DNA of 64,000 nt from Kangiella sp. (GTDB lineage Bacteria; Pseudomonadota; Gammaproteobacteria; Enterobacterales; Kangiellaceae): assembly GCA_028284185.1 (NCBI GenBank), contig JANQSG010000024.1, positions 1 to 64,000 on the forward strand, in the 5' to 3' direction. Below the pieces are notes generated by a model. It was not told where the DNA came from. It searched no databases and saw only the letters and a list, made by a program, of their open reading frames with translations. Below, piece by piece: positions 39,500 to 64,000 of the stretch (position 1 is the stretch's first letter; each line of letters begins with the position of its first letter). The position numbers and the translations under genes were made by a program.

Positions 39500-40474
39500 A
39501 TGAGCAGTTCGAATTTAAACTTTTCTTTATTATGGCAAAAATATGCGCAACTGGTGGCTAAGGTTTTAGCAGCCCTATTAGCACTGCTTGCCCTGTATTT
39601 TATCGCCAAGATGATTTGGTTATGGGTCGATTATGCTCAGCCAAAAACCATCCTGGCGACCAGTAATCCTAATTCAGTCAATTCTTCGGTACAAACAATA
39701 AATGCCAATAAAATAGCCCAGATGCACCTGTTTGGTGCTGCTAATCAAACTGCCGAGCCGGTTGAGGAAGTTGTGGGTGAAACCCACCTTAACCTGAAAT
39801 TACTGGGTGTTTACGTGGATTCTGATGAATTGCAAAGTAGCGCCATTATCAAAACCGGTGGTAACAAGGAAAAAGTCTATTGGATTGGCGACAAACTGGA
39901 AGGTGTGGGTGCTAGTCAAGTCAGTCTAAAACGGGTAGAGCCATTAAAGGTTATTATTAATAATAATGGTAGAAATGAAACCTTGACGTTATTGGAAAAG
40001 CTGAATGAACAGGTTATTGCTTCGGTGGATAGCAATAAAAAAGAGGCGGATAATAATACTAATGGTAAAACCATTGATAAGCGGCGCGATAGCCGTTTGA
40101 CCAAAGATTTAACCGATATGCGCAATAAGTTAGCTCAAAGCCCCCAGTCCTATGCAGGTTTAGCACGATTTGAGCCAGTGGTGGATAACGCTGGTCAGAT
40201 TGCTGGCTTTAAGGTGGCGCCAGGCAAAGATCCTCGAATGTTTAGTCGTTTGGGTTTGCGTCGAAATGATGTAGTCAAATCTATCAATGGGCAAGGGTTA
40301 AGTAATGACGCCTATTGGACTGCGCTTAAACAGCTACGGACGGCTGAAACTTTAGAAATTAGTATAGAACGCAATGGGCAACCAGTGACCTTGTTATTGA
40401 ATTTAGGAGCGAATAATAGTTCGCAAAAGCAAAATATTCAGCCTGAAGTTAGACAAGAAATAAAAATTCAATAG
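39500..40474 (+). CDS. gspC: Type II secretion system protein C
   Basis: A 324-residue inner-membrane protein: cytoplasmic N-terminus, one span (about 18-37), a homology region (HLNLKLLGVYVDSDELQSSA, at about 94-115) that contacts the secretin, and a C-terminal PDZ domain (MFSRLGLRRNDVVKSINGQG). It links the inner-membrane platform to GspD and selects substrates. First gene of gspCDEFGHIJKLMN; its promoter should lie in 39264-39499. Confidence 0.92.
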   Translation: MSSSNLNFSLLWQKYAQLVAKVLAALLALLALYFIAKMIWLWVDYAQPKTILATSNPNSVNSSVQTINANKIAQMHLFGAANQTAEPVEEVVGETHLNLKLLGVYVDSDELQSSAIIKTGGNKEKVYWIGDKLEGVGASQVSLKRVEPLKVIINNNGRNETLTLLEKLNEQVIASVDSNKKEADNNTNGKTIDKRRDSRLTKDLTDMRNKLAQSPQSYAGLARFEPVVDNAGQIAGFKVAPGKDPRMFSRLGLRRNDVVKSINGQGLSNDAYWTALKQLRTAETLEISIERNGQPVTLLLNLGANNSSQKQNIQPEVRQEIKIQ

Positions 40475-62886: not shown

Positions 62887-63348
62887 TTACTCAAAACTCT
62901 TAAAATTAAACTGTCTTAATGCCTCATAGGCCAATATAGCTACGGTATTAGATAAATTTAAACTACGACTATCCTTTTTCATGGGGATGCGTAGTAGCTG
63001 TTCAGCGATATCGTCTAAGATCCAGTCGGGCAGACCGCGGGTTTCGGGGCCGAAGATAAAGTAGTCTCCATCCTGGTAGTTTATTTGGTGGTAATAAGCT
63101 TTGCCTTTTGTGCTAAGACCGAATAAGCGCTTTGGCTGTTCTGATTTTTTAAATTCATGGTAGGATTTATGAATCTTAATATTGGCCCATTCGTGATAGT
63201 CCAACCCTGCACGGCGCATTCGTTTATCGTCGATTTCAAAACCCAGTGGTTCGATGAGATGTAGTTGAAAACCGGTGTTGGCGCAAAGACGAATAATGTT
63301 ACCCGTATTGGGAGGGATTTCTGGTTCAAATAAAACGATATGGAACAT
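62887..63348 (-). CDS. trmL: tRNA (cytidine(34)-2'-O)-methyltransferase
   Basis: A 153-residue SPOUT methyltransferase. [20 protein letters not shown], the knot residues [14 protein letters not shown] and [20 protein letters not shown] are diagnostic for TrmL. It methylates the wobble nucleotide of tRNA-Leu. It begins 3 bp after the ntrC-like gene. Confidence 0.95.
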
Positions 63349-63351
63349 TAG

Positions 63352-63978
63352 CTACCCTCCTTCATTATTATTTTGTAGTTTTTGTTCGGCGGCTTGCCAT
63401 GATTGTAATTTACGGGTTAACGTATTGCGACCCCAGCCGAGTAATTTTGCTGCTTTCTGTTTATGACCCTGACATAAATCCAGAGCTTGTTTCACCATAA
63501 ATTGTTCAAATTCGGTTTGTAAATCCGCTAGGATGCTTTGATTGCCCTGATGATATTCAGCCATCAAGGTTTTCTGAATTTGCTCCTGCCAGGGAGCTAA
63601 TTCTTGTGGATTTTCCAAAGCAATGGCTTTCTGGCAAATGGATACGGCCTGGTGCAAATCAAATGGTTTGGGTAGATAATCGAAAGCACCAATTTGATGG
63701 GATTCCACTGCCATTTGAGTGTCAGCGTTGGCAGTAATAATCACTACCGGTAAATGCGGGTAGCGATTTTTAGTCGTTTCCATCAGCTCCAAACCACTCA
63801 TACCTGGCATCTGTACATCGGTAATTAGGACTTTAGGAAGATCTTTTTCCATTAATTTTAAGGCATCCTGCCCATTATCCGCTGCTATGACCTTAAAGCC
63901 TGCATTGCTTAAGGCTTTGCTTAACACCCAGCGAATGGAGCTGTCATCATCCACCAACAAAATTAGTGGTTTATCCAT
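63352..63978 (-). CDS. NtrC-like response regulator lacking the sigma-54 AAA+ domain
   Basis: A 208-residue protein with only two of NtrC's three domains. The receiver (residues 4-118) has Asp54, Thr82 and Lys104, with NtrC-like DDDSSIRWVL and GAFDYLPKPFD. The Fis-type helix-turn-helix (160-192) reads DLCQGHKQKAAKLLGWGRNT, very close to the NtrC C-terminus. The roughly 240-residue AAA+ ATPase (GESGTGKE, GAFTGA) is absent; residues 125-155 resemble the linker that normally follows it. The frame is uninterrupted, so the domain seems to be cleanly lost. It could bind DNA but not activate sigma-54 polymerase. RegA/ActR-type regulators have similar form but different sequence. Confidence 0.88.
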   Translation of the reverse strand: MDKPLILLVDDDSSIRWVLSKALSNAGFKVIAADNGQDALKLMEKDLPKVLITDVQMPGMSGLELMETTKNRYPHLPVVIITANADTQMAVESHQIGAFDYLPKPFDLHQAVSICQKAIALENPQELAPWQEQIQKTLMAEYHQGNQSILADLQTEFEQFMVKQALDLCQGHKQKAAKLLGWGRNTLTRKLQSWQAAEQKLQNNNEGG

Positions 63979-64000
63979 TTGCAGCTTCCCGTTTAATAGA

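Follow-up and report, generated by a model that had tools for sequence, protein, structure and literature searches.

The end of the window, by which we mean the whole stretch of 64,000 nucleotides that was analyzed, is occupied by part of a nitrogen regulation locus whose minus-strand order is glnA, DUF4124, ntrB, short ntrC and trmL (Table 1). The name trmL for the gene directly downstream of the short ntrC and the DUF4124 type of the gene between glnA and ntrB are to be taken as our presumptive assignments. The ntrB gene, which the earlier note had suggested looking for upstream of position 63978, is present immediately upstream of the short ntrC and overlaps it by 8 bp, so that the latter has the place beside ntrB in a glnA-ntrB-ntrC locus that is expected of an NtrC ortholog. 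None of the 17 Kangiella loci tabulated departs from the synteny glnA-ntrB-ntrC-trmL; 16 of them have the DUF4124 gene in the interval from glnA to ntrB, the locus L159 being without a match. A gene of this type (L017:9161-9679) also occurs at that place in two of the six family outgroup loci containing glnA.

Table 1. Features of the locus and related copies in other genomes; positions beyond 64,000 continue the numbering of the window
Feature	Position	Strand	Remarks
trmL homologue (presumed)	62887..63348	-	directly downstream of short ntrC; conserved neighbour, outside the proposed mechanism
Short ntrC	63352..63978	-	208 aa; receiver (REC) and DNA-binding domain, without AAA+
C-terminal domain of NtrC type, residues 129-196	63391..63594	-	helices and Fis-type HTH; profile, alignment, 1ntc match
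Junction	63595..63612	-	AAA+ and flanking linker gone relative to Kangiellaceae NtrC
Receiver domain, residues 1-122	63613..63978	-	NtrC profile; (beta/alpha)5 fold in the model
Phosphoacceptor D54 of the receiver	63817-63819	-
ntrB, 3' end	63971..64000	-	whole gene 63971-65050, running past the window on contig C21
NtrC box at ntrB	65099-65115		beyond the window
DUF4124 gene (presumed)	65160-65678		beyond the window
glnA	65803-67224		beyond the window
NtrC box at glnA	67318-67334		beyond the window
amtB-glnK copies	G161:C1:1676728-1677900; G195:C20:308145-309317; G007:C3:31490-32665		other Kangiella genomes

Domain organization of the short NtrC

The frame of 208 residues starts with ATG, contains no internal stop and is intact over exactly the interval given in Table 1. 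Pfam matches the receiver domain (PF00072, 104 bits) at residues 6-111 and HTH_8 (PF02954, 50.6 bits) at residues 156-192, and PF00158 is absent from the five Pfam matches obtained at E values up to 1. Both Pfam and the family alignment show that the AAA+ domain with its Walker motifs and GAFTGA loop is absent, which bears out the observation of the earlier note that this domain is missing from one open frame with receiver and HTH in place. The protein was cut in two and each half scanned separately against NCBIfam. For the REC half the best family is NtrC with 138.5 bits, followed by AtoC (97.4) and ActR/PrrA/RegA (63.5). The C-terminal 82 residues are likewise best matched by NtrC (56.1 bits), at profile positions 402-464; the runners-up are Fis by bit score (25.0) and PrdR by E value (24.8 bits), and the 15 families listed for this half do not include ActR/PrrA/RegA. 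The receiver and HTH are thus of NtrC type and not of the RegA/PrrA type, and the linker preceding the HTH corresponds to the one that follows AAA+ in NtrC, both as proposed from the sequence earlier. Judging from these scores, the NtrC likeness of both halves is far beyond chance.

Residues D10-D12, T82 and K104, together with D54, are invariant across 15 aligned short forms, and the recognition region of the C-terminal domain reads GHKQKAAKLLGWGRNTLTRK. The DNA-binding domain of NtrC (1ntc) is the best solved chain for the C-terminus (E value 9.9e-11) and the only one matching it at E values up to 0.01. A structure model built from 15 Kangiella short NtrC sequences (mean pLDDT 80.5, pTM 0.58) displays a (beta/alpha)5 receiver up to about residue 120, has its lowest confidence at residues 123-127, i.e. 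at the junction, and consists of helices alone after that. A fold search with the whole model returned mainly receiver domains.

Distribution and origin of the short form

A first survey drew on 295 sampled genomes from the order, 17 of them genus members. In each of these 17, the match extends over both domains and the frame has 204-247 residues; for other genera, among the matches listed, the alignments end by query residue 141 and lie in long frames. A second survey applied the curated NtrC model with its cut-off to 40 genomes of the family (20 from the genus and 20 from other Kangiellaceae, L050 and G307 being counted once). Full-length NtrC above the curated cut-off was found in none of the 20 Kangiella genomes, this one included, as against 19 of the 20 other Kangiellaceae, the exception being a genome of another genus (G305, 73% complete) in which neither NtrC above the cut-off nor the short form was detected. 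The short form is present in 19 of the 20 Kangiella genomes, including G307, G308 and single-contig assemblies, and was not found in G306, which is 55% complete. Since the short form is common to the genus and full-length NtrC to the rest of the family, the loss of AAA+ is, as far as the sampled genomes tell, ancestral and took place in the ancestor of the marine genus Kangiella. These surveys cover the search of related genomes that the earlier note had recommended. Two other readings are rejected on the same counts, namely an assembly or frameshift error in this gene, given the short form in 19 of the 20 genomes, and a full-length NtrC elsewhere in the genome, none of the 20 having one above the cut-off.

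Alignment of the short NtrCs with 16 full-length NtrCs of the family reveals that the short forms join the end of the receiver directly to the helical region before the HTH, skipping AAA+ and its flanks. The start of the HTH motif LGWGRNT falls on residues 180-186 in 18 short forms, as against residues 446-457 in the 16 full-length proteins; the missing stretch, comprising AAA+ and the flanking linker, therefore amounts to about 260-277 residues relative to Kangiellaceae NtrC. Separate trees of the REC and HTH parts, as called for earlier, group the protein with NtrC and place the RegA-like protein of the same genome elsewhere, with uncertain deep forks in both, as the trees rest on few columns and contain long branches. 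In the REC tree the 18 short proteins are on one side of a branch among the NtrCs (96/89), and PilR and GlrR attach at an unsettled fork where long branches come together. The C-terminal tree unites the short forms (18 proteins) and the family NtrCs in one clade (96/98), which stands apart from PilR, PrsR, GlrR and the RegA-like protein and within which the short forms alone do not constitute a supported clade (33/88). The RegA/RoxR-like protein itself is a separate receiver-HTH regulator of about 177 residues (L306, G000:C10:19000-21500) and represents the layout onto which the short NtrC has converged.

For the pairs with finite dS, the remaining ones being saturated, omega is 0.025-0.047 in REC (3 of 10 pairs) and 0.016-0.13 in the DNA-binding domain (9 of 10 pairs, several of them with dS above 1). 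Such low values indicate purifying selection, so that the short NtrC is kept by selection. Profiles, alignment and trees together identify this protein as the genuine NtrC ortholog in Kangiella, from which AAA+ has been excised.

NtrC boxes and promoters

In the outgroup, all six loci that contain glnA, out of 16 fetched, have a sigma-54 site with at most one mismatch at -70 to -82 relative to the glnA start codon. At this position, no sigma-54 site is found in any of the 17 Kangiella glnA promoters scanned (in the case of L167 over 356 bp of upstream region only); stray hits with two mismatches occur at -172 in this genome and at -353 in L161. Each Kangiella glnA promoter contains instead one NtrC box with 0-2 mismatches (L167 has an additional poor, overlapping box in a looser scan) and, downstream of it, a perfect TATAAT. 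The distance from the box center to the first T of this hexamer is 60-62 bp in 18 of 19 promoters, among them G307 and G308 with 61 bp, and 50 bp in the remaining one (L159), these promoters being related by descent and not 19 independent events. A second perfect TATAAT lies at 32 bp in L159 and at 42 bp in L171 and G308. As in all Kangiella promoters described here, the -10 elements and start sites are predicted; with the -10 element starting at -12, the glnA box is centered near -72 or, at the shorter spacing, near -62, a difference of one helical turn. Both are positions from which class I activators such as CRP work. Relative to the predicted -10 element, the spacings at glnA (60-62 or 50 bp) would fit helically phased class I activation. 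In dinucleotide shuffles of 17 genomes a perfect TATAAT appeared at 50-51 or 60-62 bp in 0-1.6% of cases per genome, for windows picked after the data were seen. By eye, the glnA alignment contains no evident TTGACA-like -35 element, which fits an activator-dependent promoter. It seems, from this promoter anatomy, that glnA has exchanged its sigma-54 promoter for one of sigma-70 type in which the box occupies an activator position.

The arrangement in front of ntrB is a different one. In 18 of 19 Kangiella genomes the box center is located 25-27 bp before a -10 element (0-1 mismatch) and the box therefore covers the -35 region; the box of G307 has no clear -10 element at this distance. Among 16 outgroup loci, which code for full-length NtrC, 13 have a box before ntrB and three do not; the center is 25-28 bp from a -10 element in nine, and this spacing is absent or unclear in seven. 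Because the same spacing occurs in these nine loci, the placing of the box over -35 is probably older, within the family, than the domain loss. In six enteric and vibrio loci no -10-like hexamer was found at 25-28 bp from the ntrB boxes. With respect to the predicted -10 elements, the geometry at ntrB is that of autorepression. As a positive control, the scan of the E. coli locus (L094) recovered a pair of glnA boxes at a distance of 32 bp, together with the sigma-54 site and the box in front of ntrB.

All three Kangiella copies of amtB have an NtrC box with 0-1 mismatch upstream. At two of the three, a second box is located 40 bp further upstream. In all three, the script places the best -10-like hexamer (one mismatch) at a distance of 55 bp, out of phase with glnA; a TGnTA that is in phase, at 51 bp, can be made out by eye in each of them, with poor hexamers. 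The three promoters contain one sigma-54-like hit (two mismatches, L291), situated at the gene start.

Boxes with up to one mismatch are few, 0-5 per Kangiella genome as compared to 0-3 for the reversed control pattern. This genome has three, at glnA, at ntrB and at 39723-39739, the last one inside an ORF just upstream of a secretin-like gene, and L333 has one further non-target box. Eight non-target boxes fall within ORFs of at least 200 codons (seven in the loci scanned along with amtB, one in L295), and three are outside frames of 200 codons (L331, L334 and L335). The one in L331 (G283:C80:44553-44569), outside any such frame, is a perfect NtrC box. Among the sites inspected, only glnA, ntrB and, where present, amtB are recurrent, and the regulon of the short NtrC looks tiny on this count. 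A large remaining regulon was considered and rejected, given how close the number of boxes is to that of the reversed control.

Signalling components and sigma-54 machinery

The components upstream of NtrC are widely retained in the genus. GlnD is found in 20 and GlnE in 19 of the 20 Kangiella genomes, the two being told apart by frame length, and a PII protein with a high score is found in 19 (GlnB retained). The histidine motif LAHE[IV]K and the GLGLGIAQ motif of NtrB are intact in all 17 Kangiella loci. The amtB gene is present in three of the 20 genomes and was not found in the other 17, this genome included.

The rpoN gene, also to be sought according to the earlier note, is present in this genome, together with seven PF00158 matches of which three are strong. 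From their family features we take these three proteins to be PrsR-like, GlrR/QseF-like and a degenerate PilR; NtrC is not among them. In all seven Kangiella examined, the AAA+ domain of PilR, whose gene lies near glnB, is degenerate: in Walker A another residue stands in place of the glycine preceding the lysine, and both the GAFTGA loop and the Walker B acids are gone. The same motifs are intact in all six other Kangiellaceae examined (loci compared: G000:C16:12550-13014 (L309, L011) and L319-L324 vs. L325-L330). PilR is apparently a second sigma-54 activator without sigma-54 function in Kangiella, so that two such activators have apparently been disabled in the genus by different routes.

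Proposed mode of action

On the basis of the observed domain loss, its distribution over the clade, purifying selection, the loss of the sigma-54 promoter at glnA and the box spacings, we propose the following mode of action for the short NtrC. As the conserved parts suggest, NtrB would phosphorylate the receiver in answer to PII, and phosphorylation may tune dimerization or DNA binding of the two-domain protein, which would work at sigma-70 promoters. From its site at about -72 (or -62) ahead of glnA, and from the one preceding amtB-glnK in genomes that have these genes, it most likely activates transcription, presumably through direct contact with RNA polymerase in the manner of class I activators. 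Bound over the -35 region of the ntrBC promoter, it would repress its own synthesis; the repression of glnAp1 and glnLp by NtrC in E. coli (PMC3870243) also speaks for this reading. The ancestral NtrC may accordingly be pictured as having had two skills, sigma-54 activation by means of AAA+ and the repression of sigma-70 promoters by binding alone, of which Kangiella NtrC would have kept the second and lost the first.

We therefore favor, with somewhat more confidence than doubt, a short NtrC that is a sigma-70 regulator activating glnA and repressing ntrBC, control being re-wired and not abolished. The earlier note had anticipated re-wiring to plain binding, either as a repressor or as a sigma-70 activator, and the promoter anatomy at glnA and ntrB supports this. 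Its further suggestion that classical nitrogen control might be lost does not agree with the recurrent boxes that survive at glnA, ntrBC and, where present, amtB-glnK. For the wider proposition the scales are evenly poised: the central nitrogen regulator of the whole genus would have changed over from sigma-54 to sigma-70, NtrC now being a small class I activator and autorepressor with the glnA (and amtB) promoters rebuilt for it, and, if PilR is added, a lineage-wide retreat from sigma-54 may be in progress.

Activation of glnA is the most likely reading of its promoter, and repression at the same place is its main rival. According to the latter, which we regard as unlikely but worth serious consideration, the short NtrC is a pure repressor of both ntrBC and glnA that has retained the ancestral role at sigma-70 promoters and lost activation altogether. 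The behaviour of E. coli NtrC, which represses glnAp1 and glnLp (PMC3870243), is in line with this, as are the conserved box over -35 at ntrB and the nearer second TATAAT in L159, L171 and G308. However, the glnA box is well upstream of the main predicted core promoter, its spacing is either kept or shortened by about one helical turn, which repression does not need, and the absence of an evident -35 element suits dependence on an activator.

Much less probable is an action through another enhancer-binding protein, with the short NtrC lending its DNA binding to an AAA+ partner or interfering with it. While rpoN and two intact sigma-54 activators, the PrsR-like and the GlrR/QseF-like protein, do remain in the genome, sigma-54 sites are missing from the expected place in the target promoters, and no partner is seen co-localized. 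It is more improbable still that the gene is a decaying remnant or an assembly deletion without function. Genome reduction might point that way, as Kangiella genomes at least 90% complete measure 2.3-2.9 Mb and those of 15 among 16 relatives of like completeness 3.6-7 Mb, and so might the missing amtB; decay is nevertheless contradicted by the conservation of the short NtrC, whose presence throughout the genus extends to single-contig assemblies, whose omega is low where it can be estimated and whose predicted binding sites are conserved. Finally, a RegA/PrrA/ActR-type regulator resembling NtrC by chance would share the two-domain layout and the lack of AAA+, but such an origin is ruled out for practical purposes by the profiles, NtrC winning for both halves, and by both trees, in which the RegA-like protein of this genome is placed apart, and it does not agree with the position in an ntrB-ntrC locus; no full-length NtrC above the curated cut-off is found in the same genome.

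How RegA-like receiver-HTH regulators might have originated from AAA+ activators is hard to study because intermediates are rare, and the same rarity hampers the study of how a regulon may change its sigma factor without losing control. Here one and the same locus holds the ancestral form in the sister genera and the derived form in Kangiella, the partner kinase and the boxes have been retained, and the switch is therefore open to direct test by swapping proteins and promoters. It also follows that annotation as NtrC need not mean sigma-54 control.

Comparison with known systems

The short NtrC has in common with enterobacterial NtrC (NRI), the archetypal sigma-54 enhancer-binding protein, the receiver, the DNA-binding domain, the NtrB partner, the glnA-ntrB-ntrC locus, a box of the TGCACC-N5-GGTGCA type and the position of a box before ntrB. 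It differs by the lack of AAA+, and hence of ATPase and sigma-54 contact, and the Kangiella glnA promoter differs by its box near -72 and by having no sigma-54 site at the usual place. With the RegA/PrrA/ActR/RoxR regulators, which serve redox control, it shares a receiver joined directly to a Fis-type HTH, whereas the sequence and family of the HTH are different and a separate RegA-like gene exists in the genome.

The closest parallels are the NtrC orthologs of Rhodobacter capsulatus and Caulobacter. According to PMC10274813, both are without the GAFTGA loop and work at sigma-70 promoters, and Caulobacter NtrC activates glnA and represses itself; for Caulobacter, the action at sigma-70 promoters without GAFTGA is also described in PMC12421884. 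Kangiella would share with them an NtrC ortholog at sigma-70 promoters, but AAA+ is naturally absent in Kangiella and retained there: according to PMC10274813, ATP binding is needed in R. capsulatus and Walker A/B residues are needed in Caulobacter, and growth of Caulobacter on ammonium is not sustained by an engineered NtrC from which AAA+ was removed, from which result it follows that domain loss alone makes no activator. A literature search at the level of titles and abstracts, with few subscription journals, yielded no natural NtrC without AAA+, nor such a case under Kangiella nitrogen regulation. As the sigma-70 NtrCs in these sources keep AAA+ and the Caulobacter deletion fails, a natural NtrC without this domain would be a step beyond the known cases.
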